From the NCBI GenBank assembly GCA_002702895.1, contig PACX01000013.1, positions 44,555 to 108,554 on the forward strand: a DNA stretch of 64,000 nt. Direction: 5' to 3'. Under the pieces are notes generated by a model, which saw nothing but the letters and a program-made list of their open reading frames with translations, was not told the DNA's origin and did not search any database. Origin of the DNA: Flavobacteriaceae bacterium. GTDB lineage: Bacteria > Bacteroidota > Bacteroidia > Flavobacteriales > Flavobacteriaceae. The translations under genes were made by a program, and so were the position numbers. Positions 37,201 through 57,135 of this stretch are shown one piece after another (positions within the stretch are counted from its first letter, which is position 1; each line of letters starts with the position of its first letter).

Positions 37201-38536
37201 GTATTGTTTTATCATTATAACTATTTCTGGTTAATTCTCCTAAATTTAAAATATACTTGCCACTACCGTCATTGAAGACTGGTGACTCAAAAATAAATTT
37301 ACCCGTTATTAAATTAATACTTCCATTTTCAGAAGCAGATGAAACATTTGTTAACGCTTTATTAGTTAAAACTACATTACTAACATTTATGGCATATGAA
37401 CCTGGGTCTACAATTTTGTCTGGTTTAACAGAGAATTTCACTATTTCTCCAATAGGCTGAGCTAAAACTGCATTACTAGGAGAATAGGCAACTACTCTAA
37501 GAAATTTGTTTCCTGAATCATCTGTTCGAACATTAGAGCTTATAACATGATCTGTTCCTGATTTAAGTAAACTTGCACTTTTAGAAATAAGCTCTATTTT
37601 AGAATTTTCAGGTGTTATATCAAATTGAAAACTAGTAATATCCTCATCTCCATTTATTGAGACTTTAACATCTGAAGTTTTATTATTCTCTGCATCTGCA
37701 TTGGATTGAACCACCACCCTATTATCATTATAAACTTTAGCTTCGAACTTAAATTCTTGTACTCCTTTTCTAAATTTGTTAGGATCATCTGAATCTAAAA
37801 ATATAGACTCCTTAAAAGTTCCATTTGCAGATGTATTTACTCTAACATTGATTAATAATGTTGCATCAGGAGATAACTTTTGTGGCCAAGTAATTGGAGT
37901 GCTTTTATCACTCCACTGAGTTAAAGAAAATTTAGTTAATTCACTTTTGTCAAGAGAAACATTTAACTCTTGTGTTCCTTTATTTTCAATAACCCATTGA
38001 AAATCAGTTGTTGAATCTTTATAAACACTTCCAAAATTATGATTATTAGTATTCCAATTAAAATGGGGGGCGAGAGTAGTTATTGTTCCATTTTCTAATT
38101 TTAATGTAAGATTGGTATTGTCTTCTTTTGAAGCAACTACACTAGCTAATTCAAAGTTGTAGTTTCCATAATTCATACTATTATGTAAACTAAGATCCAA
38201 TAACTTACCATTTCCAGTTGGAATTGTTTTATTTGAAGGAGAATAGATTAATATTCTCAATTTTCCTGAAACAACCTCTTTTACAGTTATTACATGATCA
38301 GAGCTGTCACCACCCAATCTAGCTTTTATTAAATTATATGAAGATTTGTAAGTAAAATTATCCCCGTCATACTTAACATCAAATTGTAACGCCTTAATAG
38401 CTGTTGCAGTAGTTAAATGTAAATCTAATGCAAAATCTTTATCATAGCCATACGCCCCATCCTTAACGGATAGGGTGTCTTGGCTATATAGCGTTACTCC
38501 TATTAAGAGTAATAGTACTTGAATAATTCTCTTCAT
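34274..38536 (-). CDS. T9SS-secreted multidomain protein with cohesin-like modules, nested cupredoxin and TSP3 repeats
   Basis: This 1420-residue protein has a signal peptide (residues 1-18). Cohesin-like beta-sandwiches lie at about 20-150, 270-405 and 530-775. The first two are followed by choice-of-anchor/ASPM-SPD-2-like segments (HNFGSVYKDSTTDFQWVIEN). The third cohesin-like module is split by a plastocyanin-like cupredoxin at about residues 563-678 with ligands His611, Cys660, His663 and Met666. Two cadherin-like domains (about 780-1000) and calcium-binding thrombospondin type 3 repeats (about 1007-1175) follow. A SprB-like beta domain and a type A T9SS sorting domain (ILYYPNPTNQDVSVHV to KTFKIVKR) end the protein, so it should cross the outer membrane by T9SS. 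It starts 6 bp after the stop of the dockerin-bearing ORF and overlaps the lipoprotein gene by 4 bp. Confidence 0.88.
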   Translation of the reverse strand: MKRIIQVLLLLIGVTLYSQDTLSVKDGAYGYDKDFALDLHLTTATAIKALQFDVKYDGDNFTYKSSYNLIKARLGGDSSDHVITVKEVVSGKLRILIYSPSNKTIPTGNGKLLDLSLHNSMNYGNYNFELASVVASKEDNTNLTLKLENGTITTLAPHFNWNTNNHNFGSVYKDSTTDFQWVIENKGTQELNVSLDKSELTKFSLTQWSDKSTPITWPQKLSPDATLLINVRVNTSANGTFKESIFLDSDDPNKFRKGVQEFKFEAKVYNDNRVVVQSNADAENNKTSDVKVSINGDEDITSFQFDITPENSKIELISKSASLLKSGTDHVISSNVRTDDSGNKFLRVVAYSPSNAVLAQPIGEIVKFSVKPDKIVDPGSYAINVSNVVLTNKALTNVSSASENGSINLITGKFIFESPVFNDGSGKYILNLGELTRNSYNDKTIPYKNSGNKKLKITSASSTNPDVTIIGSFPIEIDANGTSNQEIKLVPSNVSNDFNTYVKFIHDGGNAMDSVQIKGTLKNRNTLVMKNSIVNKNAVNTVPISVLNSNEVKGMQFDISVPKETKSFTWTLTADSNEDFTFAELSNAKDPGITHYVGDEINFVNNAGSTHPLYIVTGLSNDGGYDSTKQLAGVTNQGATSGTVKVDLSTVSPGTYYYICGNHKSMQGTISILPKFSISASSSDLIAARTSDFILTQSSLGGVKYRFLIYSNNNSVFSGNNGAIFNMPLSVSKIDNSAMDIVNGAYNVAIENIIISGKDNSNITTEATSTGIIVVGGSSEFDPVVDPNQIAYLKENPTLNTYFYKVKASDADQNNFLDDFKIVSGNDDGTFGIIADNGDLYVAKPENVDFETKQSYSLGITVSDGYSTSAVETVVVEIIDDPNPFVINDFTVQVYRDNNKGGSFDDSDDIRTSSSSSSVSYELYSGNDKDVFLLDASSGKLSFSTAPVFATPKDSNKNNIYEVSIKVVSLDDTKDDTPVITSEKTVSIKEGTLDALTVTSMLSSSASDVDGDGVVDSLDNCPNVANSNQRDYDSNGEGDACEDSDGDGVLDNKDTCPVIPNADQADSDFDGIGDVCEDTDNDGVIDSLDNCINVANLDQTDLDGDGIGDACDNDKDGDTILNNLDNCPTVANTDQADADKDNIGDICDDDDDNDQVLDINDQCPNTPEGSVVDVNGCAIFVLPVNNNKVEVTSATCIGNTDGSIGLSVEDNSYDYTITITGKDDVVIAGEDKSASVTGLGKGTYTVCFKVDGQANYEQCFEVVIGEPKPLSAFIDVDNDKRTTNIQLDGSSLYNIDINGEMHQVKGNNFTTTLQTGLSIIKISTNLECQGVIEREIFISEDILYYPNPTNQDVSVHVSGEDTTVQVSVFGEKGDLIYTQEQKIQDFSRKTKIDLSRQITGTYIVVMEGPTVRKTFKIVKR
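35010..35516 (-). repeat. Thrombospondin type 3 repeat tract
   Basis: Five to six tandem units of the form D-x-D-x-D-G-x-x-D-x-x-D-N-C-P are encoded here (for example DGVVDSLDNCPNVAN and DGVLDNKDTCPVIPN). They lie between the cadherin-like region and the sorting domain and are expected to bind many calcium ions. Confidence 0.9.
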
Positions 38537-38542
38537 TTATCT

Positions 38543-40786
38543 CTATTTCTTAATTAGCTTGTGAACACTTATAATCTCTTCATTTCCTTTCGTTATCATT
38601 CTCACTTGAACAGTATAAATTCCAGAAGCTAACATACTAACATCCAAATCGTTTAATCTTCCCATATTTTCTAATGTTGTACTGTAAACTGAAACGCCTA
38701 GAACATTATAAATATTAACATTCAATGTCTCAACATTTTTAGTTACATCTGTTAATAAATTAACATTAGAATTAGCAGGGTTTGGATAGATTCGTATGGA
38801 ATCATCAAGAGAATCAAAGAATCTTTCATCTGAGTATTTTAAATCAAGAACTAAACCATCATTGGTTCCTGCTCTAAGATTATTAATTTCTAAGTCTTCA
38901 TTATCATTTATATCCAGATAATCGAAAACTACATTTGTTAACTCATTTATTGGTTGATTATTATAACTATATATTAAGAATGTTCTCTTCCCATCTTCAA
39001 CAAAATTAACAACTGAAAGATTTTTTAAGTCTTCAGATAATTCATAATCAATAGTAGCATCCATTGAGAATTGTAATGAAGTTACTGGCTTTTCATTTTC
39101 TAAGTAAATCCTGCCATTAGTATAAACTAAAGTTGCATTACCAACTGGCTTGTTAGAGAAGTATTCCCAATCATATGGATCATAATTAGAACCATTGGCA
39201 ACACTACCAGTACCATTTAATATAATATTAACAATAGCTGAAATATCTGTTACATCAATCTTACCATCCCCATTAACATCTGCAACTTCTTGAACAAATA
39301 CTTTTGGATTATTTCCAAGGATATAATCTAGATTTGTTGTTAAGTCTAAGATATTTACTCCATCATCTCCATTAGAATCTCCTAATTTAAATGCAGAAGT
39401 AACTGTATACTTCTTCTCTTCTGAGAATGTAGAACCAATAAAACTAGCATCAATAGATTGAACTGCAACATAATAATCACCCATTGGAACATTAACTTTC
39501 CATGAAAGGTTATTTTCTGCATTTCCAGCATCAGCAACTGCTTTCACCCCATCAATATCAGATCCAGCTGCTAATATTTCTTCACCGCCTGGTGTCGTTC
39601 CGATTCTTACAGAATATGTTAATCCTTCTGAAGGTGTTTTCTTACCATCTGCATCAGTATCCACAGCACCTGACCAAGTAATTACCATTTCAAATAATGC
39701 TTGCTCATTACCAGCTGAGCCAGTTCTTACAGAAGTTTTATTTCCTCCATTGTCCGTATCAGGATTATAAGCTCCTAATCTAGATCTTTGGAAATTAACT
39801 TCTGTTGGAGGGAATGGTCTAGCATTTAGTCCATATGTCTTTTTAACACCAACAGATTTCTTAAGAGGCTTACCTTCTCTGTAATCGCCTGAATCATCAT
39901 TTGCTATACCACCTCCTGCAGGTCCTGCAAATCCTCTAACATTCATTACTACATCAGAAATAAACCCGTAGTAACTGTTATTATCTTGTTCAAATTTATT
40001 TTTACCAGTAATAACTAAATCTGCATCTAAATCTCCATCAAAGTCAGCTACCCCAATATTTGCATCCTCATACATAGATAGATCATAACCAGTATCTACC
40101 ATGATATTTGACTCTGTATTCCAAGTAGACATCTTTGTTACTTTACCTTGACCACTAACTGTTCCAGAATAAACAACATCTGCAAATCCATTACTATCAA
40201 AGTCTCCAAATACAAATCTACCATCTCTAACAGCTGGAAGACCAACATTCATATCAGTAAATCCATCATCACCATTTTTGTATGCCTTAACAATATCTCC
40301 AGATGACGACTGTCCACTGAATAGTACGTCTAGCTTACCATCAGCATCGAAATCAACAAAATCTGCTGTACCTTCTTTAACTGAGACAAAATCATTGGCT
40401 TTCTCTTCAAAATATACTTCAATAGGTTGCACTGCAACTCCATTTTCATCTAATGCTCTTTTATTTTCAAAAAGAAGTGTTTTATATCCATCAAATGAAT
40501 ATCCAGAAATTAAGAAATCGAAATCTCCATCATTATCAACATCACCAAAGTCATATGATGCAAAGCTTAAATTACTTAATTTACCTTCCTCAACTACACC
40601 TTTAGGATCAGTTACAGTAAATTTATCAAAATCTAAACCAGTAGTTTCTGTATCACCATCAGCTATAGAAAACATTGCCATAACGGTTGTTGCTTCATTT
40701 GTAAGTTTAGAAGATTGACCCGCACCAATTATTTCTACAAGTCCATCATTATCTAAATCCTTGATAGCAAATTCAATATTATACAC
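38543..40786 (-). CDS. C-terminal part of the giant adhesin: FG-GAP repeats, dockerin and T9SS sorting domain, after an in-frame stop
   Basis: This 747-codon open frame opens at a GTG but has no signal peptide. It continues the giant ORF upstream in the same frame: the 30 codons at 40787-40876 also read as sensible protein (TTNQDEGLYREYWREHYPFD). It encodes FG-GAP/VCBS-type repeats (DLDNDGLVEIIGAG, DVDNDGDFDFLISG, DFDADGKLDVLFSG, DFDGDLDADLVITG) and an Fn3-like domain. A paired EF-hand dockerin type I-like module follows (GDSNGDDGVNILD and DVNGDGKIDVTD). The protein ends in a type A T9SS sorting domain (IRIYPNPANSNVNLL to SVHKLIKK). I judge this to be the C-terminus of one 5212-residue protein, not an independent gene. 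The next gene starts 6 bp downstream. Confidence 0.85.
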   Translation of the reverse strand: MYNIEFAIKDLDNDGLVEIIGAGQSSKLTNEATTVMAMFSIADGDTETTGLDFDKFTVTDPKGVVEEGKLSNLSFASYDFGDVDNDGDFDFLISGYSFDGYKTLLFENKRALDENGVAVQPIEVYFEEKANDFVSVKEGTADFVDFDADGKLDVLFSGQSSSGDIVKAYKNGDDGFTDMNVGLPAVRDGRFVFGDFDSNGFADVVYSGTVSGQGKVTKMSTWNTESNIMVDTGYDLSMYEDANIGVADFDGDLDADLVITGKNKFEQDNNSYYGFISDVVMNVRGFAGPAGGGIANDDSGDYREGKPLKKSVGVKKTYGLNARPFPPTEVNFQRSRLGAYNPDTDNGGNKTSVRTGSAGNEQALFEMVITWSGAVDTDADGKKTPSEGLTYSVRIGTTPGGEEILAAGSDIDGVKAVADAGNAENNLSWKVNVPMGDYYVAVQSIDASFIGSTFSEEKKYTVTSAFKLGDSNGDDGVNILDLTTNLDYILGNNPKVFVQEVADVNGDGKIDVTDISAIVNIILNGTGSVANGSNYDPYDWEYFSNKPVGNATLVYTNGRIYLENEKPVTSLQFSMDATIDYELSEDLKNLSVVNFVEDGKRTFLIYSYNNQPINELTNVVFDYLDINDNEDLEINNLRAGTNDGLVLDLKYSDERFFDSLDDSIRIYPNPANSNVNLLTDVTKNVETLNVNIYNVLGVSVYSTTLENMGRLNDLDVSMLASGIYTVQVRMITKGNEEIISVHKLIKK

Positions 40787-40876: not shown

Positions 40877-40879
40877 TTA
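40877..40879 (-). other. In-frame TAA stop inside the giant gene
   Basis: The codon before it ends REDDP and the codons after it read TTNQDEGLY in the same frame. There are no indels in the surrounding frame. The stop separates the giant N-terminal part from the only T9SS sorting signal. Confidence 0.95.
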
Positions 40880-43800
40880 TGGATCATCCTCTCTTGCATC
40901 ATCAATCAGTCTAGTATTTAAGAACATTCGCAATCTAGTTCCACTACTTTCTTCAATAGCAACAATTAAATCTGTTTGACCGTCATTGTTGAAATCTCCA
41001 AATTCAAAATTAGACTCTCCATAGTGAGCCCCATATACAGGAACAAAAACTTCATTTTCAAAAGCATAAATATTTATTGCTTGTTTGTCTACTCTAACTC
41101 CATAGCCATATCTGCTTGTTTCCATACCTACATTGGTACTAATTAAATCTTTGTCTCCATCTCCATCCATATCCATAAATTGTAATTGAGTAGATTTAGA
41201 AGGAATTAATCTTCTATCTATAATTCCACCAAGATTCAATAGCTTCCACTCATAATCAAGAGTGATGCTAACTGTATCGGAGAATACTCCACCCATATTT
41301 CCTCCATCAATCGCTTGAACAGAAGCATAATAAGTGCCTGGGTTCAATATAACCTCTCTAGAATTTAATGTAGAAAGTGATGGAATGTTTATAAGTGTAG
41401 ATCCAGTTTGATCATCACTATTTGCATAAATAATATTATCAAGTCTAAATGGACCCTCATTATCAGTTTCTCCAGTAATTGGATCGAAATATCCTGTTCC
41501 AATTTTTAAATCATATCTAAATTCATTGGAAGAATTATCTGTAGGTTTATCCCATTTAAATTCTACACTACCAACTCCATCATGGGTTGCTGTAAGATTT
41601 GATATCTTATTAGGAGCTGTATTTAAGTTATTATTATTTTCAGCTTTATATAAAATAGCCTTAGCTATTCCATTATCATCCAGTCCTGTTAAAAATAAAT
41701 CAAGGTCTCCATCTTTATCATAGTCAATCCAATCTGTACTACTTTCTCTCAACCCTTGAATAGTTAAATCTGATTCAACTATTCCATATTGACTTCCAAA
41801 ATAAGCTGGGAAAGTAGTATAGAGTTTTGTAATTGCCGCTCCAGTATTTGGATCTTCACCAGCAATAATCAAATCACTTTGGCCATCATTATTATAATCA
41901 GCAAAATCAAAATCTACGTTCTTTAACTTAGGCAGATCATTTAATGCATTTAAATTACTACGTCTCTCGATATTTCCTCCCTCATCTTCACCAATTGCTA
42001 AATAGTCTAGCTCACCATCTCCATCAATATCTGCATAGATAGTATTACCATTTTTATAACCAGCGTGAACATTAAATCCATCTCCATCATTTAAATTCCC
42101 TTGTTCATCATAACTATCTCTATAGTAGGTATTTACAAATCTCATACGATGAGATTGAAGATTAGTAACATCTCCTCTTGATCCATTAGTAAATAGATCA
42201 TTATCTCCATCTTGATCTGCATCTACAATATCTATTTCTCCATTTATTACACCCGAATCATTGAATAAACCTTCATTAAGGAAATTGAAATCTCCAAGAT
42301 TTGTATAATAATAAGTTCTAAATTGATTTTCAGAATCAATTCCAGACATAATTAAATCTGGATCTCCATCATTATCCAAATCACCCCATTCCATATCAGA
42401 TTGGGATAACCCCTCTACTTGATAATCTTCCATTAATTCAAAGAAGTTACCTTCTTGATTAATATAAAGTTCAGCTTTTCTAACATTTCCTTCTGCATTT
42501 CCTGAAACTGCAACATCTAACCATCCATCTTGATTAACATCTACAAACTCTATATCTCCACCAATAAATTTGGTGAAATTTTGATTTGTATTTTCAAAAG
42601 TTCCATTATTGTTTATATATACATTTGTAATGGTTCCAGTAGATGATTGTCCCATCAATGCAAGATCCATATCTCCATCTTGGTCATAATCACCCCAACT
42701 AACCTTTCCATCTTCAACTCCTTCAAAAGGAGCATCATCAACTAAGGTTAATCTAGTAGCCTCAACAATAGTAACTTCGGAAATATCAGTTGATGCAGCT
42801 GTTCCATTTTCAATTCCAGCAACATTTATATCGATAATTTCATCTTCTTCAAACCAAGGATCTTTAAATGCACCTAAGGTAATATTACTTGTTGTTTGCA
42901 TAGCAGGAATTTCAATTGTTGCACCTAATCCAACTTTACCAATTGTTGAACCTTTAGCATTTGTTACTCCTAAAGAAGCTCCAGAAACTGCAACGTCAGT
43001 GGGGCTATTCAAATTAGTATCTTGAATAACATTTGCAACATAAGGACTTCCATCATCTAAGAAAGAAACTTTTACTACAATATTATAATTGGAAACTGAT
43101 ATGTATAGGTTTCCTTCAGAATCTTTATCAATTCCTCTAAAATTTGGTTCTTCTCCACCATTTAATCTTAAGCCATAAACATAGTTTCTAATGTTTGGTA
43201 AGTTATATATCTGATTAGTGTTGAAGTCTACAACATGAATATAACTACTATGGCTCCAATATTCCTGATATACAGAAAGATAGTTCGTTACATACATTTT
43301 ATTACTGCTAGCATCCATAAAAATTCTAGAGGGGTATGTAAATGATCTATCGTCAATAGAATTGACTTGATCATCATTTGTTATCCAACCATTATTACCC
43401 TTACTACCAGCAATTGTTTCTGTTGAAACATTACCAGATTCATCAATAGTTAATTTTCCAATATAATGTTGATACATATCTGAGAAATAAAGAATATTAT
43501 TTACAAAGTGTAAACCTCCAACTCTACTTATACCTCCATTACTACTATTAGCAAGTGTTATAACTTTTTTACTATCAGCTATATACATGTGTATGTTATC
43601 GTTAGATGAAAAGAAAACATTTCCAGTATTTAAGTCAGCCGTAAGAGCTATTGGCCATTCAGCTCTAACCTCTGAAACATCAGTAAGTTGATTGTATGAA
43701 CTTCCATCTCTATTATATGGGCTACCTATAAATGCACAAACTGTTCCATCAGCTTTTATTTCCCTAATGGTATGAGCTTCATAATCAGCAACAAGAAATG

Positions 43801-46800
43801 AACCATTTAGATAAGGTATTACAGTTAAAGGAACATCAAATCTTGAATCCTCTCCTTTACCATTAGCAGAACCAGGATTATCTGTCTTACCAGCTAAATT
43901 ATTATACCCAAAAATTGAAGATACTGTATAATCAAGCATAGCTGTTGCTGTTGAGTTATTACTGTTAGATTTTGTTAAATCAATAGCTACTGTAGTTGGG
44001 TTCAATTTAGCATTAGAAAGATTTGCGGTAACCACAACCGATCCATTATTTTCAGCGATGGATGTTGCAGATGTAGCGAAAGTAACTACTGGCTCTTCAT
44101 CATCACTTATTTTAATCTCTAATGAAGTTTTAGCCCCTAATTCTACATTACCAGGGTTTGCTATGGAAACTTGTATAGTTTCTACAGGCTCTTCATTAGT
44201 ATCCTGAAGACCTGTTAATGTTACTATTGCACTTTGAGATCCAGCAGCAATGGAAAAACTTTCAGCTGATGATTTATAATCTGATGTTCCATCCTGAGAA
44301 TTTCCTTTAGTTGCTGTACTTCCTGTTCCGAAAACTAAATCTACAGTAGAAGGCAATTCAGAAGAAGTAACTGGTCCATACTCCACTATGTAATGTCTAT
44401 AATCATTTTGGTCATGTACATACCATTTATTTCCATAGGTAAGTGCATAACCAAAACCGTTTTGAACATTATCCCAGTTGTCAAAATTTTGGTAGTCAAA
44501 AGTTCCATAAACATTAGACCATCCGTATTCTCCTTGTTCTCTTTTTGTTCCAAGCCATGTTCCATTGTGTATCATTATAGAAGAAATAAATTCATTTTCT
44601 TCCTGACTATCAATAACTAATAATTGACCTCCAACTGAAAGAGCATTTTGATTTGCATCAGCCCATTTTGAACTATATCTTGAGAAATAATATTTATGAC
44701 CTTCAAATTCACCCATAAATTCAAAATCATTAGAAGCCTCAGAAGGTAACTCTGTCTCTTCCCAGAAACTAGTAGCTCCAGTAGCATCAGTCAAATAAAC
44801 CTCTAATTCTAAAGTCCCATCTGCTTCATCTAGCACCAAGCTTTCTGCATCTAATTCAATTTTTGGAATCAATTCATCACTTTTTAAAGTAAGATCAATT
44901 GCACCAGAATTTGCTAAAGTTCCTCCAGTAATAGTATTTGAAGTAAATCTTATTGTTTCATCAGTCTCATAAACTACATCATTAATAGATTTTAAATTGT
45001 AAGTAACTGAATTTTGTCCAGCAGGAATTGTCATTTTTGGTTTAAGCTGAACTTTTCTTATTCTATTATCATCAACATCGACTACAAATAGAGCTCCCCC
45101 ACCATATGCAACAAATCGTGGTTCTCTATATGTTGCCTCATCTTGAGTTCCATCTCCATAATCATAATCACCTGTTCCTGAAATAGTTTCTACCTTAGCA
45201 CCTGAGGCATTTGTTAAATCAGAAAGTTTTCTTATTCTATGATTATTTGCATCCCCAACATAAATATTGTCATTTTCATCAATAGCTAATCCAGAGGGAT
45301 CACGGAATTTTGCATTGGTTCCATATCCATCAGCATAATCATGCCACTCACCTGCAACAGTAGAAACTGTGCTACCATCTGCTGATATTTTTCTTATCCT
45401 ATCATGTGCAGTAACATATACATTATTGTTTGAGTCAACAACAATACCTCCTCTTAGGTTTGATAATTCTGCTTCTAATGCATCTCCATCATTTTCACCC
45501 CAATTTCCACTTCCAGCAAAATCAGTAACAATCCTATTTGTTCCATTATCTACTACCTTTCTTATTTTAGAATTATCTGCGTCTACTACATACATAACGT
45601 TATTAGAATCAAATGCAATAGACTTAGGTCTATTAAATCTAGCTTCTGTTTCATTTCCATTGTCATCCCCTTGATCATATCTTTTACCAACATATCTGGA
45701 CAAGACTCCTGTACTCATTTTAATTCTTGAAATTGCATGCGCATTTCTTTCAACAATATACATGTATCCACCATTAATTTTTACATCATTAGGATGTGTC
45801 AATGTTCTGTTTAATTTATCTCCATCTGTATTTTCTTGATCGCCATCTCCCCAGTAATATCCAGTACCAGCATATGTAGAAACTTCTCCCGATGGAGTTA
45901 TTTTTCTAATCACATTATTCCATTCATCTGCTAAGTAAACATTTCCGGAAGCATCTACCACTCCATTTTTCATACCATCAGAAAATTCTGCTTCATCAGC
46001 ATCTCCATCTAAATATCCATCATTTCCATCACCAGCATGAGTAGTCACTCTATTTAAATCATTAGATCCAAAGTCATTTCCAAAAATCGCAATTCCAGCA
46101 CCTGAGGATGTAAAATCTAATGAAATATCAACAGCATTTAATTTTGGATTGTCAATATTTGCACTTATTGTAGTATTGGTTGTTACTCCATCAGAAGCAA
46201 CTTCACCAATTGTTGCACTAGCAACAGATAATGTAACCGCTGGTGCTTCATCATCACTAATTGAGATAGTAGCTGTATTATTTAATGGATTTGAACTTGA
46301 ATCCTGTGCAATAACAGCTTGCCCAGGTGTTTTCATCGTAGTAGTAATAGTTTCTATAGCCTCATCAGCACTATCATTGACACCCGTTATAACTACAGTA
46401 GCACTTGGCTGACCCTTAGTTATAGTTACTGTTCTATCTTCAGAGGGAACTCCAATACTAGTAGTATAATCTGTTCCATCCTTAGCACCTGTACCACCAA
46501 ATTCAATAACAGCAGTAGCATTTAAATCAGAAATTGCTGAAGAAAACTCAATAACAAATTGAGAATGCCAATTACTTTGTCCATTAAACCATAATCCTCT
46601 GTATCGAATTTGTGTATAAAATCTATCAATATAATCTGGATTATAATCCCAACCCCAATTGGTGTAATCACTTTGAGCATCATTGGTCCATTTCCAAACA
46701 GAATTTGTTGAATCATAGGAATGTCCTATCCAGTGATTTAACCATTCTCTGTTATCCATATTAAATTCAGGATCTTTTTCATAAATTTTATTTGTTATAA

Positions 46801-49800
46801 AATCATTCTCTCCAGCTGATGTTACCACAGCCAATTGACCTCCTAGTGTACTAGCAAGACTTAAAGCATCAGAATAAGAGAGTCTTCCCTTATCATCATC
46901 TTTTGACGAATAATATTTAGATCCATTGTATTCTCCTAAATAGTAAAAATCAGCCTTTTCAGAAGCATTCATATCAGATTTAGCACTAGAAAATGCATCT
47001 GCAAGACTAACCACTAGATTAACTGTTCCGCCATTTTCATCAACAACATCATCACTTGCTGATAATTTTATTGTTGGAGCGCTATCGTTACTAATAACTT
47101 TAGTTACAATATTAGAAAAAGAATTAACAGCACTAGATACATTTGAAACAGATTGTACTGCAACAGTAAATGCTTCATCATTACTTTCATACAACTGATC
47201 GTCTATTCCATTTATAGTAATAGAACCTGTAGTTGCTCCTGCTGCAATAGTAATTGATGGTTTAAGATCAATTTTTCGAATCTTATGGTTTTCTGTATCT
47301 GCGATATATATTCCGTTAGTAGTTACAACCATTCCTCTCGGAGATTTAAATTCAGCAGAATCGAAATTTCCATCTGTGAATCCATAATCATCTCCCGTAA
47401 TAGTTTCTACTCCTTCTGCAGTAATCTTTTTTATTTTATTTTGATCAGCCGCATACATTGTTAAAGAAGATTCAGAGGAATCAATAGTCAAAGCTCTAAG
47501 ATTTCTCAGTTGTGCTGAAGCTAAAGTACCATCTCCATGCCCCCAGTTATCGTTCATATTAGCATAAGTTGTAACTACCCCGCCAGGAATAGTAACTTTT
47601 CTAATCCTGTTCTCATCAGCAACATACATAACATCATCATCTCCGGACTTATCAATTACAATTGAATAAGGATTTCTGAATTTTGCATTATCTCCAGTTC
47701 CATCTTCAGTTCCATATTCGCCTGATCCTACAAAATTACTTGCGGTCCAATTTCCACCACCATCAACAACTAACTTTTTAATTTTGTGACTTTCCGCTAC
47801 ATACAAATTACCTGCACTGTCAAAAACAAGACTTCGTGGACTGTTATATTGAGCTGTATTTTTATCTCCTACTGCATCACCCCAATCACCATTTCCAGAA
47901 ACTAAGGATACATTACTTGAAGCATCAATTTTTCTAATTCTATTTCTTCCTTCCTCTGCAATAAATAATTCATTTCCGGCATTATTAAATGCTAAAGCAC
48001 TAGGTCTAGAAAAACCTACTTCCATTTTGTTCCCTGTTTCTCCATAGTGATCCCAATCTCCATTACCAGCGTAAGTAGAAACTACTCCGTCAGAAGTTAC
48101 TTTTCTAATTACATTATTATCGTAATCTGCGACATATATATTGCCAGAACTATCTGCAGTAATTTTCCCTGGATGGTCAAATTTAACAGATGTTCCTGTT
48201 CCATCTTTAAAACCATAACTACTTCCGGCAAGAGTGCTTACCTTCTGTAATTCAGCAACAGAATAATCTACGTCACGAGTAGCTCCTCCATCGGTTATTG
48301 TTAAGTTAAGTTTACTACTGGTAGTTTTTGCTTTATCACTTGTAGCAGTTATAGTTACTGAGCCTCCATTTTCATTTACATTAGCTGCACTAGTAGCCCA
48401 AGTAACTGCTGGTGCTTCGTCATCAATAATACTTACAGATGCTACAGAATTAGAAGCATCATATGTTCCATCTGTTATGTTATCCGTTATAGTGTAAGTA
48501 ATAGTCTCTGTGTTCTCATTTTCAGAATCATTAACACCAGTAACAGTAAGTTCTGCCTTAGACTGACCAGCAGAAATAGTTATATTTCCACTTCCAGTAA
48601 ATGTGGCATCCGTACCACTAGTTTCTGAAAATCCTGTAGATCTTGTAACCACGTAAGGAATAACTACATCTTTTGCAGAAATTGTTCCACTAAATTCAAT
48701 AATAAAGAATCTACCATTACTTTTTGGAAGGTCGTTCCATCTTCCATTGTTTCCAAAATATTCAACTGCATCTTCATCTCCTGCATTATTAGGTTCTCCT
48801 CCATTCCAATTAACATAAGTAGAATCACTTCCATTTGCCCAAACGAAAGTTCCCTCTTCATCAATATCATTGAAACCTATCCAATAAGAATCCCATTTAT
48901 AATTATCTCCTAAATTATTTTTTATAAAATTATTCTCAGCTTCACTATTTATGGTTAAAAGATACCCTCCTAAAGCAGTTGCTCTATCTTTTGCTTCTGT
49001 CCAATTTAACCATTCATGAGCTATATAATATTTGTGGTCTTGGTAATTTCCAATGTAAGGGAATTCACCTTTTAAACCATCATCTAAATCCATTTTTGTA
49101 CCAGATTCTGAAGCACCTCCAATTTGGAAGGAAACTTTAGAAACTCCTCCATTTTCTGCAATACTTGTTTCACTTGCAACAACTTGAACAGTTGGAGCAG
49201 AATCATCACTAACAAGTATAATTCCATTAGTGCCATCAGTTGCATTAGTTGCTTTTGTTGTAGTACTATCAAAACTTAAATAATCTGTACCGGATTCAGT
49301 AATAAGATTTTTAGTATTAATAGAAACATTAGTTCCAGCAGCTACTATTTTAATAGTCTCATTATCCTCATAAAATGATTCATCTTTAATGTTTAATACG
49401 TAGGTTCCTGTGGTTTGACCAGCTGGGATTCTAATTTTAGATGAAAAATCTATAGTTCTGGCCTTTTTATCATCATATTGTACAAAGACTAAATTTCCTG
49501 TTGTTGGATGTAAAGTCATTCCCATTGGTCTTGCAATTTTAGCAGTTGATAAAGCACCATCTACGGTTCCTTCATCAGAGCTTGAATCAATAATTTTAAC
49601 TAAACTTCCAGACGAGGCAACATATTTGTAGATATAACTATTATTTCTAGCTCCAAAATATATATTATTTGCACTGTCTAAAACTAGTCCGTATTTTTCA
49701 GACCATCCTTTTTCTACGACTTTAAGGAATTTAGGAGATCCTGATTGAGAACCAAAAGTGAATTTTTTAATTCCATAATAATCTCCAACTAAAACATCAC

Positions 49801-52800
49801 CATTACTGTCAATATCAATCGCTCTAGGTCCTTCAAGATTTGCAGAAGAAGCTGAAACATTATCTTCACTCCTTCCCCAATCATTATTAACAGCTCCAAC
49901 ATTAACAACTTTTATATTGTTAAAGTCTTCAGCATAAGCATTGGTATAAATATTGTCTGAATCGGATGTATAAATTTTTCTAACTGTATTTTCATCTGTA
50001 ACATAAATTATAGTACCTGCAGCATTTACAGCAATTCCTTTTAAATATCTAAATCTAGCATCAGTTGCAATAACAGCTGAAGCACTTCCAGAGGGAACCA
50101 TTGTTTCACTCCAATTATTACTTCCGGCAACATAAGAGATTTCATTATTACTTGGGTTTAGGATTCTTATAGCGTTTTGATCAATAAAATATATTTTTCC
50201 ATTACTATCAATATCCATATCCCTAAGGTCTTTAAACTTAGCGCCAGATCCAGTACTTGGAGAAGTAGAAAAGTCTCCATAGCTTCCACTTCCAATTGAA
50301 CTAATAGTTCCTCCGGAAGTCATTTTCCATATTTTTCTACTACTTGCATCACCAGCATAATAATTTCCACTTCCATCAATAACAATACCGTATACCCTGT
50401 TCATCCCTGTAAAAGAAAGATCACTTAAATAACCCTCATCAGTAGAAGTAAAGTCAGTACCTGCTGTAGCAGTACCTGAGATGGTTAAAGCAATGGTAGA
50501 AGCAAATGATTTAGCATAATCTAATGTAGCTACTATATTCACACTTTCATCAGTTCCTTCTGTATATGAAACCTTATTAGCCGATGTAGTCATAGTGGCA
50601 ACAGCATCTTCATTATCCTGAATATTAATTGTAAGTGTCTTTTTACTTCCTTTCACTATAGCTACCGAAGCATCTGCTTCAGTTCCAGTTATTGTAATAG
50701 GCTCTGTGCCTTCAGCTGTAGTATCATTTATTACTGTTACTGTAGCAGTAGCCGAAGATTGACCATTTGCAATTGTAATAGAATTTGCATTTATAGTCCA
50801 GTCATCTCCTGAATCATTAGTAGAATCCCCATTTGTGTTTTGAGCTGAACCAGAATAGGCTAAATTTACAGTTGTATTAGCAGAAGCATTTACACTGCTA
50901 TCAAACTCTATAATATACCTAGCATATTGTGTTTCCGCGCGATTTTCCCAACCATTACCGTTAGCAGTTCCATTATAATACTGAGTAGCACCTTTCTGAT
51001 TTTGTTGATCCTGAGGCCAGGATGTATCCCAGTTAGTATATCCGCTTGCTACATTATAAGTAGCTCCATTAATCCATTTCCATGCAGCTCCATTTAATTT
51101 ATAATTAAGTCCAATCCAAAAATGTTCAGTTTGTTGATTAGCTTTATTACTCGCTAATTCACCTAATAACCAGTTTTCCTCAGCTGAAGTTTCAAATACA
51201 ACTAGATAACCACCTTTTGCAAGAGCATCTGCTTTTGCAACACTATTGGTTACATTTTCATCTTTATAATAATATTTATGTCCTCCATATTCTCCTATAT
51301 ATTGATATCCTAATGAATTGGTAGCATAAGCAGAAACTGCAGCTGCATCCATATCCCTTTGAGCTGAGTAGAAAGAGTTACTAACTAAACTAGCTGTTAC
51401 TGTTACATTACCGACAGCTTCAGAAACTGTATCTGAGCTTACATCTAAAACAATTTGAGGTTTAGATTCGTCAATTGCAGTAATTGCAATATTAATTGTT
51501 GCTGTAGCACTGTCTACTGTACCATCATTTGCTTTTACCTGAAAAGAATCTGTGGCATTTGAGCTAATGGATGAAGTTGAAGTATAAGTAAGGATTCCGC
51601 TAGGAATAGAATTTCCGTTAGATAATTCTGAGCCATCTGTAGCGGTTAAAGTTCCACTAGATGGTGTACTAACAACAGTATAAGTTAAAGTAGTCGAATC
51701 CACATCAGATCCTAGAATTGTAATGTCTACTTTGTCTTTTTCATTAACTGTTATAGTAGATGAGGCATTAATAGTTGGGGCATCATTAACAGCAGCAACA
51801 GTTATAGTTGCAGTAGAAGTATTACTGTCAGAATTGGTATCATTGGCCTTAAAAGTAAATGAATCAGATGTTGTTTCTCCTCCGTTGTGTGTGTAAGTAA
51901 CTGTGGAACCTGCTATTTGAGCACCTGCAGAAATTGCTGCATTAGAATTGTTAGGATCTGTTAATGCACCATTAGTCGGTACCGCAACAACGATATATTT
52001 TATAGTTCCAGCTCCAGTATCAGAATCTGTAGTATTTGTTTGTAAATCATATGTTATATTTCCTGCTTCGTTTAATGTAAAACTTGCAGCAGTGGTAACT
52101 GGTGAGCTATTTACCGATGTTACAGTAACTGATACTGTAGCGGGGCTACCATTTGCAGTTCCATCGTTTGCAGAATAAGTAAAACTATCTGATGTTGTTT
52201 CGGTTCCATTATGCGTATAAGTCCAAACTCCTGAATTACTGATGGTAACCGTTCCATTGGTTGGAGCAGTTTCCAATTTAAATGTAAGGTTGTTATTGGC
52301 AGTTTCTACATCTGTAGCTGCAAGGGCAATAGGACTTTTTGTTCCACCTTCAGCAACAGTTATACTAACAGCACTAGCAACTGGCAAGTCATTTACAGCA
52401 GTTACAGTAATAGATGCAGTAGCAGCAGCAGAAGTTAATTCTCCATCACCAACTGTGTAGGTGAATGAATCACTAGTTGTTTCTCCTCCATTGTGAACAT
52501 ATCTTACATTTCCTGAACCATTGTCAATTAGGTTACCATTAGTTGGTTGAGAAGCTATGGTAAATACCATTTGATTTAAAGTATTGTCTGTATCTGTGTA
52601 TGAAAGATCAAATGTGCTTTCTGCGCCTTCATTTAAGGTAACAGTTGTTCCAGTCGAAGTTGGAGCATCATTAACGTTAGAGGCAAACAAAGTAACAAAT
52701 GTCTTTTCGGATTCATCACCATTTGAGTTTTTAATCTTATACTCAAAAGTATCTCGTCTATTTTCTGAACTATCATGCTGATAAGTGAAACTACCATCTG

Positions 52801-54181
52801 CCTTGTTAAGAGTTAATGTTCCATATTTAGGGGCAGTAGCAACTTTTACACTATCAATTGAAAAATTATTGGAATCCACATCATTAGCCTTAAGTCCTTG
52901 ATCTGCAGCAACTTGAAGTAGAGCACCTTCAGCAAGATTATAAGTATCTGGAACAGGTATTAAAGTAGCTAAATTAAAGGTTACTGTAGCTGCTGCACTT
53001 GTTGCTCCAGATGCATCTTTGGCTACATATGTAAATGAATCATTATTAAAAACAGCAGTGGTGATAGGAATATAGGTAAATGTACCATTTGCATTAAGTG
53101 TTACAGTACCAGATGATGGCCCTGAAGCTAGTTCTGTTGTCATATCATTTTCTTCAGGATCTACGTCATTTCTTAAAAGACCCATACCAGGGTTGGTAAT
53201 TGTGTATTCCGCAGCAGAGATATAATAAGTATCATTAGCAGCTGCAGGAGCATCATTTTGAGCGTTTATAGTTACAGAAATAATTGCAGAAGAACTTAAT
53301 GCCCCATCTGAAATATTATAAGTAAAAGTATCTGTAGTTGTCTCAGATCCATCATGAGTATAAGTATAATTTAAAGGATTATTAGTATCTAAAGTAACCG
53401 TACCGTTTGAAGGAATACTAGTTACAGAAGAAGTTAGTGCAGAGCTATCTGAATCTGTCGCACTAAAAATTCCTGAAGTGGAATTTCCCTCATCAACACT
53501 AATTGTGGCAGCATTTACTATTGGAGCATCATTAACAGCAGTAATGGTAATACTTACAGTACCTGACCCAGATAAAAGATTATTTCCTCCATTTTGAGTA
53601 TTGGCCTTCTCAGTAGCTGTGACTGTGAATGAATCAGATGTTGTATCAGAACCATTATGTGTATATGTAAAAACACCTGATGTAGCATCCTTGGTAACTG
53701 TTCCGTTAGTAGGATTACTATTTGTAATTGTAAGTTCAGTATTTTCAGCATCCTTACCAATTACTGTTATTTCAATTGAGGAACCCTCATCCACAACTTT
53801 TGAAATAGCATCAACAGTAGGTGCATCGTTAACATTAGTTACATTAATAGTTATTGTTGAAGTATTACTATCTCCATCTCCGTTAGTAGCTTTAAAAGTA
53901 AAAGAATCAGATGGTGCTTCAGAACCATTATGTACATACGTGTAATTACTTCCATTTCCATTAAAACTGGTTTTTTGAACTGGTTGAGAGACGATAGTAT
54001 AAGTGTCGGGACTCCCAGTAGTATAATTGGATAGATCAATATTCACAGTCGCTCCTTCATTAATTGTAATAGTTGCAGAGGAAGTTTCTGGTGCAACAAG
54101 AACATTAACATTAATTGGGTACGGATTTGAATAAATTAAAAGTGAAATAAGTAAAAAAAGTGAGGATAAAGTATTTTTCAT
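40877..54181 (-). CDS. Giant surface adhesin, N-terminal 4434 residues: cadherin-like array, four lectin/NHL-Calx-beta super-units, FG-GAP repeats
   Basis: A signal peptide (residues 1-19) is followed by about nine cadherin/Ig-like repeats (30-905) joined by VNDAP-type linkers. Four super-units follow (905-1660, 1660-2367, 2367-3100, 3100-3800). Each has a Calx-beta domain with an inserted C-type lectin domain (approx. 955-1095, 1700-1828, 2408-2543, 3150-3265), then a Calx-beta domain with an inserted NHL propeller (approx. 1250-1575, 1975-2305, 2708-3038, 3425-3745). FG-GAP/VCBS repeats (3805-4185), an Fn3 domain (4187-4300) and more FG-GAP repeats complete this part. Only the second lectin keeps the canonical calcium/sugar motifs EPN (1796-1798) and WND (1815-1817). 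The frame stops at TAA 40877-40879 and resumes downstream, where the dockerin and T9SS domain lie. It is probably a surface adhesin; its ligand is unknown. Confidence 0.9.
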   Translation of the reverse strand: MKNTLSSLFLLISLLIYSNPYPINVNVLVAPETSSATITINEGATVNIDLSNYTTGSPDTYTIVSQPVQKTSFNGNGSNYTYVHNGSEAPSDSFTFKATNGDGDSNTSTITINVTNVNDAPTVDAISKVVDEGSSIEITVIGKDAENTELTITNSNPTNGTVTKDATSGVFTYTHNGSDTTSDSFTVTATEKANTQNGGNNLLSGSGTVSITITAVNDAPIVNAATISVDEGNSTSGIFSATDSDSSALTSSVTSIPSNGTVTLDTNNPLNYTYTHDGSETTTDTFTYNISDGALSSSAIISVTINAQNDAPAAANDTYYISAAEYTITNPGMGLLRNDVDPEENDMTTELASGPSSGTVTLNANGTFTYIPITTAVFNNDSFTYVAKDASGATSAAATVTFNLATLIPVPDTYNLAEGALLQVAADQGLKANDVDSNNFSIDSVKVATAPKYGTLTLNKADGSFTYQHDSSENRRDTFEYKIKNSNGDESEKTFVTLFASNVNDAPTSTGTTVTLNEGAESTFDLSYTDTDNTLNQMVFTIASQPTNGNLIDNGSGNVRYVHNGGETTSDSFTYTVGDGELTSAAATASITVTAVNDLPVASAVSITVAEGGTKSPIALAATDVETANNNLTFKLETAPTNGTVTISNSGVWTYTHNGTETTSDSFTYSANDGTANGSPATVSVTVTSVNSSPVTTAASFTLNEAGNITYDLQTNTTDSDTGAGTIKYIVVAVPTNGALTDPNNSNAAISAGAQIAGSTVTYTHNGGETTSDSFTFKANDTNSDSNTSTATITVAAVNDAPTINASSTITVNEKDKVDITILGSDVDSTTLTYTVVSTPSSGTLTATDGSELSNGNSIPSGILTYTSTSSISSNATDSFQVKANDGTVDSATATINIAITAIDESKPQIVLDVSSDTVSEAVGNVTVTASLVSNSFYSAQRDMDAAAVSAYATNSLGYQYIGEYGGHKYYYKDENVTNSVAKADALAKGGYLVVFETSAEENWLLGELASNKANQQTEHFWIGLNYKLNGAAWKWINGATYNVASGYTNWDTSWPQDQQNQKGATQYYNGTANGNGWENRAETQYARYIIEFDSSVNASANTTVNLAYSGSAQNTNGDSTNDSGDDWTINANSITIANGQSSATATVTVINDTTAEGTEPITITGTEADASVAIVKGSKKTLTINIQDNEDAVATMTTSANKVSYTEGTDESVNIVATLDYAKSFASTIALTISGTATAGTDFTSTDEGYLSDLSFTGMNRVYGIVIDGSGNYYAGDASSRKIWKMTSGGTISSIGSGSYGDFSTSPSTGSGAKFKDLRDMDIDSNGKIYFIDQNAIRILNPSNNEISYVAGSNNWSETMVPSGSASAVIATDARFRYLKGIAVNAAGTIIYVTDENTVRKIYTSDSDNIYTNAYAEDFNNIKVVNVGAVNNDWGRSEDNVSASSANLEGPRAIDIDSNGDVLVGDYYGIKKFTFGSQSGSPKFLKVVEKGWSEKYGLVLDSANNIYFGARNNSYIYKYVASSGSLVKIIDSSSDEGTVDGALSTAKIARPMGMTLHPTTGNLVFVQYDDKKARTIDFSSKIRIPAGQTTGTYVLNIKDESFYEDNETIKIVAAGTNVSINTKNLITESGTDYLSFDSTTTKATNATDGTNGIILVSDDSAPTVQVVASETSIAENGGVSKVSFQIGGASESGTKMDLDDGLKGEFPYIGNYQDHKYYIAHEWLNWTEAKDRATALGGYLLTINSEAENNFIKNNLGDNYKWDSYWIGFNDIDEEGTFVWANGSDSTYVNWNGGEPNNAGDEDAVEYFGNNGRWNDLPKSNGRFFIIEFSGTISAKDVVIPYVVTRSTGFSETSGTDATFTGSGNITISAGQSKAELTVTGVNDSENENTETITYTITDNITDGTYDASNSVASVSIIDDEAPAVTWATSAANVNENGGSVTITATSDKAKTTSSKLNLTITDGGATRDVDYSVAELQKVSTLAGSSYGFKDGTGTSVKFDHPGKITADSSGNIYVADYDNNVIRKVTSDGVVSTYAGNGDWDHYGETGNKMEVGFSRPSALAFNNAGNELFIAEEGRNRIRKIDASSNVSLVSGNGDWGDAVGDKNTAQYNSPRSLVFDSAGNLYVAESHKIKKLVVDGGGNWTASNFVGSGEYGTEDGTGDNAKFRNPYSIVIDKSGDDDVMYVADENRIRKVTIPGGVVTTYANMNDNWGHGDGTLASAQLRNLRALTIDSSESSLTMYAADQNKIKKITAEGVETITGDDYGFTDGNFDSAEFKSPRGMVVTTNGIYIADTENHKIRKIDLKPSITIAAGATTGSITINGIDDQLYESNDEAFTVAVQSVSNVSSAVNSFSNIVTKVISNDSAPTIKLSASDDVVDENGGTVNLVVSLADAFSSAKSDMNASEKADFYYLGEYNGSKYYSSKDDDKGRLSYSDALSLASTLGGQLAVVTSAGENDFITNKIYEKDPEFNMDNREWLNHWIGHSYDSTNSVWKWTNDAQSDYTNWGWDYNPDYIDRFYTQIRYRGLWFNGQSNWHSQFVIEFSSAISDLNATAVIEFGGTGAKDGTDYTTSIGVPSEDRTVTITKGQPSATVVITGVNDSADEAIETITTTMKTPGQAVIAQDSSSNPLNNTATISISDDEAPAVTLSVASATIGEVASDGVTTNTTISANIDNPKLNAVDISLDFTSSGAGIAIFGNDFGSNDLNRVTTHAGDGNDGYLDGDADEAEFSDGMKNGVVDASGNVYLADEWNNVIRKITPSGEVSTYAGTGYYWGDGDQENTDGDKLNRTLTHPNDVKINGGYMYIVERNAHAISRIKMSTGVLSRYVGKRYDQGDDNGNETEARFNRPKSIAFDSNNVMYVVDADNSKIRKVVDNGTNRIVTDFAGSGNWGENDGDALEAELSNLRGGIVVDSNNNVYVTAHDRIRKISADGSTVSTVAGEWHDYADGYGTNAKFRDPSGLAIDENDNIYVGDANNHRIRKLSDLTNASGAKVETISGTGDYDYGDGTQDEATYREPRFVAYGGGALFVVDVDDNRIRKVQLKPKMTIPAGQNSVTYNLKSINDVVYETDETIRFTSNTITGGTLANSGAIDLTLKSDELIPKIELDAESLVLDEADGTLELEVYLTDATGATSFWEETELPSEASNDFEFMGEFEGHKYYFSRYSSKWADANQNALSVGGQLLVIDSQEENEFISSIMIHNGTWLGTKREQGEYGWSNVYGTFDYQNFDNWDNVQNGFGYALTYGNKWYVHDQNDYRHYIVEYGPVTSSELPSTVDLVFGTGSTATKGNSQDGTSDYKSSAESFSIAAGSQSAIVTLTGLQDTNEEPVETIQVSIANPGNVELGAKTSLEIKISDDEEPVVTFATSATSIAENNGSVVVTANLSNAKLNPTTVAIDLTKSNSNNSTATAMLDYTVSSIFGYNNLAGKTDNPGSANGKGEDSRFDVPLTVIPYLNGSFLVADYEAHTIREIKADGTVCAFIGSPYNRDGSSYNQLTDVSEVRAEWPIALTADLNTGNVFFSSNDNIHMYIADSKKVITLANSSNGGISRVGGLHFVNNILYFSDMYQHYIGKLTIDESGNVSTETIAGSKGNNGWITNDDQVNSIDDRSFTYPSRIFMDASSNKMYVTNYLSVYQEYWSHSSYIHVVDFNTNQIYNLPNIRNYVYGLRLNGGEEPNFRGIDKDSEGNLYISVSNYNIVVKVSFLDDGSPYVANVIQDTNLNSPTDVAVSGASLGVTNAKGSTIGKVGLGATIEIPAMQTTSNITLGAFKDPWFEEDEIIDINVAGIENGTAASTDISEVTIVEATRLTLVDDAPFEGVEDGKVSWGDYDQDGDMDLALMGQSSTGTITNVYINNNGTFENTNQNFTKFIGGDIEFVDVNQDGWLDVAVSGNAEGNVRKAELYINQEGNFFELMEDYQVEGLSQSDMEWGDLDNDGDPDLIMSGIDSENQFRTYYYTNLGDFNFLNEGLFNDSGVINGEIDIVDADQDGDNDLFTNGSRGDVTNLQSHRMRFVNTYYRDSYDEQGNLNDGDGFNVHAGYKNGNTIYADIDGDGELDYLAIGEDEGGNIERRSNLNALNDLPKLKNVDFDFADYNNDGQSDLIIAGEDPNTGAAITKLYTTFPAYFGSQYGIVESDLTIQGLRESSTDWIDYDKDGDLDLFLTGLDDNGIAKAILYKAENNNNLNTAPNKISNLTATHDGVGSVEFKWDKPTDNSSNEFRYDLKIGTGYFDPITGETDNEGPFRLDNIIYANSDDQTGSTLINIPSLSTLNSREVILNPGTYYASVQAIDGGNMGGVFSDTVSITLDYEWKLLNLGGIIDRRLIPSKSTQLQFMDMDGDGDKDLISTNVGMETSRYGYGVRVDKQAINIYAFENEVFVPVYGAHYGESNFEFGDFNNDGQTDLIVAIEESSGTRLRMFLNTRLIDDAREDDP
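42782..44881 (-). repeat. Super-unit 4: Calx-beta(lectin) plus Calx-beta(NHL)
   Basis: This encodes residues about 3100-3800. The lectin insert is the shortest and lacks EPN and WND. The NHL propeller has the most degenerate blades (FLVADYEAHTIREIKADGTV is a clear one). The host Calx-beta resumes with IEIPAMQTTSNITL. Confidence 0.75.
44882..47080 (-). repeat. Super-unit 3: Calx-beta(lectin) plus Calx-beta(NHL)
   Basis: This encodes residues about 2367-3100. The lectin insert has YNPDYID in place of EPN. The NHL insert has clear blades such as NVYLADEWNNVIRKITPSGE and NIYVGDANNHRIRKL. The host resumes with MTIPAGQNSVTYNL. Confidence 0.8.
47081..49201 (-). repeat. Super-unit 2: Calx-beta(lectin) plus Calx-beta(NHL)
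   Basis: This encodes residues about 1660-2367. It holds the only canonical C-type lectin site (EPN at 1796-1798, WND at 1815-1817). The NHL blades are regular (NIYVADYDNNVIRKVTSDGV, ELFIAEEGRNRIRKIDAS). The host resumes with ITIAAGATTGSITI. Confidence 0.82.
49202..51469 (-). repeat. Super-unit 1: Calx-beta(lectin) plus Calx-beta(NHL)
   Basis: This encodes residues about 905-1660. The lectin insert keeps the fold markers (HFWIGLNY, WKWINGATY, GNGWEN) but not the EPN motif. The NHL insert runs from VYGIVIDGSGNYYAGD to ARTIDFSSK, and the host resumes with IRIPAGQTTGTYVL. Confidence 0.8.
51470..54097 (-). repeat. Tandem cadherin/Ig-like repeat array
   Basis: About nine repeats of roughly 95-100 residues are encoded. 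They share the motif Y-T/V-H-N/D-G-x-E-T-T-S-D-S-F-T and linkers such as VNDAPTV, VNDAPIV, QNDAPAA and VNDLPVA. They resemble the tandem-95/VCBS-type repeats of large bacterial adhesins and should form an extended stalk. Confidence 0.85.
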
Positions 54182-54544: not shown

Positions 54545-55396
54545 TTATCGATTCCAAAGATCTTGTTCAAAATCTAAAATCTCTTTTTTTATTCTTTCTG
54601 ATTCCAAAATAGACTCTAAACCTTTCTTTTTATAAGCTTGTATAGGTCTGTCACCATAAAGATTGTCTTCTTTGTAGATATAGGAACTAAACCTTCTGGA
54701 AAGTAATAGCTGATCAAATGATATTCGATTGGCATTACTGGTGTCATTAAAAACTAGTTCTTGATGTAGAATTTCCCTGATACTGGGATACCATATCCAG
54801 AAAAGATTAGTTTTCTTTTCTTCATCTCCATCTAAATTTTTTAAATCTTCACCAATAGGCATTAATCCAAGTAATCTATACATCAACTCACCTCTTCTTT
54901 TGTCAAAATACCACATTCCTTTAATTCTGTAACCTGTAATATCATCAGAGCCTACCTCCTTAGGAATTAATTCACCATCCCCAAAATCAACTTTAGTAGC
55001 TACAATATCCTTTACTTCATCAGGCGAAAGAGGGTATCTAAAATTATCATTAACATCAGAATATATTTTTGTAATATTCCCATTTAAAATATTCTCTTTT
55101 AAGACTCTCCAAAGTGATTTTCTAGTATTTTCGTACAATTCGTCATCAATAGGAAATAAAAGAGGAAAATTTAGTCTTTCATTTAAATCAATTTTTTCAT
55201 AAACAATCTTTGACCATAAAATATCTCTATCATCAATAAACTCATATTCTAGATAGGAATCTAAATCAGATTGCAATTGATCAATATTCTTAACACCAAT
55301 CTGTTCAGGGGTTGTCGAATTTAATATATTAGACTGACCAGATAAGCAAAAACTAATCAGTAAAAAAACTGCATTAAATAGATAAGATAGTTTCAT
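54545..55396 (-). CDS. gldN: Gliding motility / T9SS protein GldN
   Basis: This 283-residue periplasmic protein partners with the lipoprotein GldK in the ring-shaped part of the type IX secretion system. A signal peptide (residues 1-20, ending SFCLSGQ) precedes the conserved GldN domain. It includes DDRDILWSKIVYEKIDLNERLNFPLLFP and the GMWYFDKRRGELMYRLLGLMPIGED region. Length and motifs fit the family. The ATG overlaps the gldM stop by one base (TAATG), so translation is coupled. It is the last gene of gldKLMN and is followed by a clear terminator. Confidence 0.95.
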   Translation of the reverse strand: MKLSYLFNAVFLLISFCLSGQSNILNSTTPEQIGVKNIDQLQSDLDSYLEYEFIDDRDILWSKIVYEKIDLNERLNFPLLFPIDDELYENTRKSLWRVLKENILNGNITKIYSDVNDNFRYPLSPDEVKDIVATKVDFGDGELIPKEVGSDDITGYRIKGMWYFDKRRGELMYRLLGLMPIGEDLKNLDGDEEKKTNLFWIWYPSIREILHQELVFNDTSNANRISFDQLLLSRRFSSYIYKEDNLYGDRPIQAYKKKGLESILESERIKKEILDFEQDLWNR

Positions 55397-57126: not shown

Positions 57127-57135
57127 AATTATTTA

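Follow-up and report, generated by a model that had tools for sequence, protein, structure and literature searches.

Ligand-binding domains that bud from split Ig-like domains have been described in the RTX adhesins AhLap, FrhA and MpIBP (PMC12077191, PMC10865825). Here we report a related arrangement in a giant open reading frame (ORF) of an uncultured marine flavobacterium, located in a stretch of 64,000 nucleotides (the window; positions 44,555 to 108,554 of contig PACX01000013.1, Flavobacteriaceae bacterium, assembly GCA_002702895.1) that falls within contig 13 of a 1.87 Mb genome that is 94% complete. The product, a putative adhesin, carries eight consecutive Calx-beta domains that appear to be split by C-type lectin domains and NHL propellers in turn. 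As in the RTX split-domain adhesins, each guest would bud from a split beta-sandwich and be projected off the fibre axis, with the two termini of the guest adjacent.

The adhesin begins with cadherin-like repeats at the N terminus, continues with the eight-host array, and then enters an FG-GAP region. The array, which has the order A1-B1-A2-B2-A3-B3-A4-B4, spans residues 904-3803 (window positions 42773-51472, minus strand) and comprises four units that align over their full length with 25-30% identity to unit 1. In the A hosts the guest is a C-type lectin, placed between Calx-beta strands B and C; in the B hosts it is an NHL propeller, and the insertion point lies between C and D. An initial annotation of the window had proposed four tandem units at 42782-51469 (residues 904-3800 of the ORF at 40877-54181, minus strand), with two guest folds nested at two fixed host loops, and this proposal is borne out by the breaks in hidden Markov model (HMM) matches and, for the B hosts, by the excision scan presented below. 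The same annotation had the lectin split the first Calx-beta domain of each unit at an early loop; the split is indeed present, but the lectin follows strand B, the second main strand. Its guest lengths were too short, as the lectins measure 136-159 amino acids with their leading linker and helix (rather than 115-140) and the propellers 331-340 (rather than about 320). The hosts and guests are as follows, with the evidence for each host, including AlphaFold2 (AF2) models, in brackets.

50612-51472, minus strand: A1, lectin-hosting Calx-beta of unit 1, residues 904-1190 (unit alignment, Calx-beta profiles)
50897-51373, minus strand: guest lectin 1, residues 937-1095, no EPN/WND motif
49202-50611, minus strand: B1, NHL-hosting Calx-beta of unit 1, residues 1191-1660 (HMM pieces, excision scan)
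49445-50443, minus strand: guest NHL propeller 1, residues 1247-1579
48416-49201, minus strand: A2, lectin-hosting Calx-beta of unit 2, residues 1661-1922 (AF2)
48686-49108, minus strand: guest lectin 2, residues 1692-1832, EPN and WND kept
47084-48415, minus strand: B2, NHL-hosting Calx-beta of unit 2, residues 1923-2366 (Calx-beta match of joined halves, AF2, HMMs, excision scan)
47264-48256, minus strand: guest NHL propeller 2, residues 1976-2306
46247-47083, minus strand: A3, lectin-hosting Calx-beta of unit 3, residues 2367-2645 (AF2, HMM)
46538-46993, minus strand: guest lectin 3, residues 2397-2548, no EPN/WND motif
44876-46246, minus strand: B3, NHL-hosting Calx-beta of unit 3, residues 2646-3102 (AF2, HMM, excision scan)
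45044-46063, minus strand: guest NHL propeller 3, residues 2707-3046
44096-44875, minus strand: A4, lectin-hosting Calx-beta of unit 4, residues 3103-3362 (unit alignment, HMM)
44372-44779, minus strand: guest lectin 4, residues 3135-3270, no EPN/WND motif
42773-44095, minus strand: B4, NHL-hosting Calx-beta of unit 4, residues 3363-3803 (HMMs, excision scan)
42926-43921, minus strand: guest NHL propeller 4, residues 3421-3752, the most divergent propeller

When the intact ORF is compared with Pfam, the guests are recovered readily (NHL, 7.6e-37; Teneurin NHL, 7.4e-36; Lectin_C, 5.7e-31 over four stretches), and matches to Calx-beta (PF03160) remain below the cut-off of 27 bits, the best of them (25.9 bits) being one C-terminal half that covers profile positions 47-114. 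Once the guests are excised, B2 yields a Calx-beta match of 34.3 bits that crosses the junction (profile 12-103) and exceeds the cut-off, and sub-cut-off matches cross the junction in A1 (23.3 bits, 5-115), B1 (21.0 bits, 6-93) and A2 (15.3 bits, 6-118). The junctions of A3, A4, B3 and B4 give no Pfam Calx-beta match after excision, and B3 and B4 show only sub-threshold LapA matches there. In the excision scan, segments were removed over a grid of positions and the Calx-beta score was recorded alongside controls. All four B hosts peak at the C-D loop, reaching 32.3-44.9 bits compared with 10.5-19.6 bits unspliced and at most 30.8 bits for the controls.

A natural counterpart of an empty host is provided by a paralogue in genome G005, a sister species (L031:3748-15363), in which five NHL-split Calx-beta domains alternate with four empty ones, and the spliced hosts align with the empty domains. 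The paralogue also has a similar tail with FG-GAP, dockerin and type IX secretion system (T9SS) elements, and a plastocyanin-like match at its N terminus. Its plain domains served to seed two HMMs of guest-free Calx-beta domains, which were then rebuilt solely from other organisms to limit circularity: c2 contains 163 domains from Chitinophaga and other loci, and f2 contains 63 domains from 29 Flavobacteriaceae loci. Both models match the B hosts as two pieces that meet at model position ~50-52, although for B3 the earlier of the two is very weak. For example, B2 is matched at model positions 5-49 (residues 1932-1976) and then 52-88 (residues 2309-2345), and B4 at 1-50 (residues 3368-3422) and then 50-85 (residues 3753-3787). 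For A1, f2 gives pieces at 4-25 (residues 915-936) and 28-87 (residues 1102-1168), which places the break at ~25-28. The two f2 pieces of A3 meet near the same point, but are weaker than those of A1, and the second starts within the end of the guest; for A2 and A4, the second piece alone is detected. The guest-free models match the C-terminal half in all eight hosts, whereas the A hosts and B3 have a weak N-terminal piece or lack it. Among 29 A-host domains, the C-half together with the N-half outscores every one of 20 shuffles in 23 cases. We consider propeller nesting in the B hosts to be established at the level of sequence, and lectin nesting in the A hosts to be well supported, if less strongly.

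Structure models agree with this assignment. The AF2 model of A2 (predicted local distance difference test, pLDDT, 89.8; predicted template modelling score, pTM, 0.83) places strands A, A' and B ahead of the lectin and strands C through G behind it, which is the Calx-beta order, and the strand order in a model of B2-A3-B3 (pLDDT 83, pTM 0.47) likewise fits Calx-beta. Foldseek searches with these two models recovered the guest folds and did not recover the host fold. Lectin 2 matches C-type lectins at TMt 0.7-0.91 (Endo180, 0.88; MBP-C, 0.91), which together with the four Lectin_C stretches identifies the A guests as C-type lectins (PF00059). The propeller matches NHL folds at TMt 0.79-0.86 (Thin, 0.80-0.82; Pizza6, up to 0.86) and is a six-bladed propeller.

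Lectin 2 alone carries the motif for calcium-dependent sugar binding (EPN or QPD plus WND), and it resembles domains of the mannose-receptor family and of collectins. Both EPN and WND are present in lectin 2 of all seven genomes tabulated (G000, G005, G011, G014, G015, G016 and G018), and in none of the 22 lectins at positions 1, 3 and 4. Given this conservation, lectin 2 is likely to be a glycan binder that uses calcium in an EPN site of the mannose/fucose type. Lectins 1, 3 and 4 and the propellers presumably bind proteins or different ligands, or serve as spacers. With a single cysteine among its 4434 residues, the ORF encodes lectins that lack the usual disulfides.

The remainder of the adhesin gene and its upstream neighbours are arranged as listed here.

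40877-54181, minus strand: giant adhesin ORF, 4434 amino acids, with a terminal in-frame TAA at 40877-40879
51473-54181, minus strand: N-terminal part, residues 1-903, an apparent signal peptide (called by eye) and then a stalk of cadherin/CSPG-like Ig domains (Pfam Big_9, Cadherin_4, Cadherin_3)
40877-42772, minus strand: FG-GAP-like region, residues 3804-4434 (Pfam)
38543-40786, minus strand: C-terminal part of the same gene beyond the TAA, with FG-GAP, dockerin-like repeats and a type A T9SS sorting domain (Pfam, TIGR04183)
54545-59273, minus strand: gldN, gldM, gldL and gldK, the type IX secretion core, upstream of the adhesin (NCBIfam TIGR03523, TIGR03517, TIGR03513, TIGR03525; the TIGR03513 match is just under its cut-off)

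The TAA, which the initial annotation overlooked, cuts the long ORF off from its C-terminal part. The ORF at 38543-40786 begins 30 codons past this TAA in the identical frame, and the two parts form a single open frame, over the sequence available, in relatives such as G014 (L043), G007 (L042), G016 (L036) and G018 (L037). The gene therefore also exists in copies that lack this particular stop, and the sorting domain matched by TIGR04183 beyond the TAA marks the protein as a T9SS substrate. The next gene (34274-38536) encodes TSP3 repeats, a cadherin domain, a weak cupredoxin match, a T9SS tail and 15 cysteines. A small lipoprotein-like ORF at 33528-34277 has a poly-glycine run behind its signal and no NCBIfam match.

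A search of 100 genomes, comprising the source genome and its relatives, revealed units that are complete or almost so in nine genomes, all from a single genus of marine flavobacteria (the source genome, G004, G005, G007, G011, G014, G015, G016 and G018); a further array contig, Ww421, is close to G015. Among the named carriers are BACL29 MAG-121220-bin8 and further genomes of uncultured Bacteroidetes. Every locus that extends far enough upstream has gldKLMN followed by the adhesin gene (the window, G005, G011, G014, G015, G016, G018 and, from gldM on, Ww421), and the gene for the TSP3 protein lies downstream in the window, G007, G014 and G018. Neither type of nesting was found among sampled genomes of the order (398) and the phylum (396), samples that overlap in part and in which only the best candidates per genome were scored, at loci reaching ~1.5 kb to either side; NHL and lectin relatives recovered there lack a Calx-beta host. 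A scan of IMG/VR gave no nested relative. One family has three genomes in which NHL domains alternate in line with IPT/TIG-like domains, as judged by eye. A genome search with the Pfam Calx-beta profile was dropped as a survey of nested hosts, since it gave zero matches in the source genome itself.

Lectins of the same family also occur in other hosts. Saprospiraceae loci, including L044:9821-14914 and L050:1814-6277, appear to carry them within HYR domains, and excision of the lectin leaves a near-full HYR profile match of 58 bits (two examples), to which the N-terminal side adds only ~2 bits in the one case compared. In a genome of the same genus (G003), an SprB-repeat protein (L033:1-6582) contains one C-type lectin that follows a DM-N-A linker; the Calx-beta lectins have a similar linker, which suggests a mobile lectin cassette.

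In trees of the lectins, propellers and B hosts, unit n groups with unit n across species, with propeller unit 2 falling into two blocks, and the A-host tree gives the same grouping for units 1, 2 and 4. The array is therefore older than the sampled species. The idea, put forward in the initial annotation, that one ancestral nesting was followed by duplication of whole units could not be demonstrated; the parts prefer different trees. Propellers 2 and 3 are sisters with 98/98 support in the tree with outgroups, whereas the lectin data mildly reject a pairing of units 2 and 3 (p-AU 0.03); a split of units 1,2 from 3,4 is rejected by none of the four parts. Placement of propellers 1 and 4 is not separable from that of non-nested propellers of other genera, and the data do not recover one clade that unites all nested lectins, nor do they reject it (p-AU 0.16). 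The trees do not order the unit duplications, and they neither show nor exclude a single nesting event.

We propose, with a probability of roughly 0.72, that the gene encodes a fibrillar adhesin of ~5,200 residues that is secreted by the type IX system and anchored to the surface, and whose split hosts project binding domains to the side. This proposal builds on the demonstrated domain identities, split points, conservation, synteny and sorting domain. Beyond a cadherin-like stalk would come eight Calx-beta beads with one guest splitting each, lectins being placed in the B-C loop of A beads and propellers in the C-D loop of B beads. Because the N and C termini of both guest folds are adjacent, insertion into a loop would leave the bead unbroken, so that the fibre continues while the guests project from its side. 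The protein would probably serve in binding to glycans of algae or particles, or in binding to other cells. Going by Calx-beta topology, the B-C loop and the C-D loop would be found at opposite poles, and hence propeller n and lectin n+1 would face the same junction. It is possible, but only tentatively suggested by this geometry, that these pairs meet face to face at alternate junctions as three two-domain heads, of which lectin 2 would be the sole calcium-dependent sugar binder.

Several results weigh against our proposal. The three-domain model has a pTM of 0.47, which is too low to place the domains relative to each other, and closure of the flanking halves into one seven-stranded sandwich is read from the strand order of the models rather than from coordinates. 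Moreover, the TAA in the window precedes the sorting domain, such that the long ORF as it stands is devoid of a secretion signal. Finally, the excision scan of A1-A4 reaches 23.7-43.4 bits, but controls from the same host are just 0.6-2.8 bits lower, and that of A4 is higher. The scan was therefore dropped as sole proof of lectin insertion.

The alternative that fares best, though we regard it as rather unlikely, is a protein for cell-cell contact or self-association, in which the propellers and degenerate lectins bind proteins as in teneurins. Pfam and fold searches both place Teneurin NHL among their best matches, and three of the four lectins lack EPN/WND in all genomes compared, but retention of the sugar-calcium motif in lectin 2 of every tabulated genome speaks for a glycan ligand. 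A gliding adhesin resembling SprB, driven by the T9SS motor rather than statically anchored, is less probable again: the giant size and the position directly behind gldKLMN would suit such a function, whereas the lack of SprB repeats and the type of sorting domain, as detailed below, would not. There is little reason to think that the gene is decaying and its architecture no longer under selection. The in-frame TAA in the window is joined by further breaks in G016 (N-terminal region), G018 (a frameshift at B2) and G011 (several), yet these positions differ between genomes, the stretches of G014, G015, G005 and G007 are unbroken, and both the motif in lectin 2 and the order of the units are conserved. 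Most improbable of all is an arrangement without nesting, in which the guests alternate in line with complete sandwiches whose likeness to Calx-beta halves is only superficial. Although Pfam makes no Calx-beta call above cut-off in the intact protein and one HMM takes the lectin end (the IIEF strand) as strand B of the next half in A1-A3, the N-side pieces have just two to three strands, the two HMMs agree on the B-host split points, homologous hosts without a guest are present at the A position, and A2 is modelled at high pTM.

If the fibrillar adhesin is as we propose, the split-domain principle extends from RTX proteins of Gammaproteobacteria to type IX-tailed proteins of Bacteroidota. The grafting principle itself was already known; what appears to be new is the Calx-beta host fold and the strict alternation of two guests. 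The locus also offers a rule that needs sequence alone, namely that Calx-beta matches broken at one of two loops point to binding domains within hosts that Pfam misses. Lectin 2 would be a specific and testable candidate glycan binder in an uncultured marine genus.

Among known systems, animal matrix proteins of the FREM1/FRAS1 type combine CSPG/cadherin-like repeats, Calx-beta and C-type lectin domains in one protein, and thus share these domain types with the adhesin. To our knowledge, however, their domains are in line, they have no NHL domain, and they are not bacterial. SprB, the gliding adhesin of Flavobacteriia, is likewise a giant T9SS-secreted surface protein. It carries a type B sorting domain, in contrast to the type A domain (TIGR04183) of the adhesin, and Pfam finds no SprB repeats in either part of the adhesin gene. 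The HYR proteins of Saprospiraceae and the SprB-repeat protein of the same genus come closer with respect to the lectin, which is of the same family and apparently inserted in beta-sandwich repeats of giant proteins; their hosts are different, no propellers were seen, and HYR nesting was checked in the two examples.

The initial annotation had considered nested alternation to be unfamiliar in adhesins. Nesting as such is published for the RTX adhesins, but neither Calx-beta as a host nor lectin/NHL alternation was found described in open-access literature, as judged mostly from titles and the openings of abstracts. The RTX adhesins use other Ig-like hosts, their guests are CBM, PA14, PBD, RTX roll and vWFA domains, and they leave the cell by type I secretion; Pfam matches neither RTX repeats nor a type I secretion signal in the flavobacterial adhesin, which has a T9SS tail instead. 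In AhLap, the Ig-like split domains number two and are located close to the C terminus, whereas the flavobacterial adhesin has eight in a row, with Calx-beta hosts, strictly alternating C-type lectin and NHL guests, and a type IX sorting domain. By analogy, the protein may act like an RTX split-domain adhesin while not being a member of that class.

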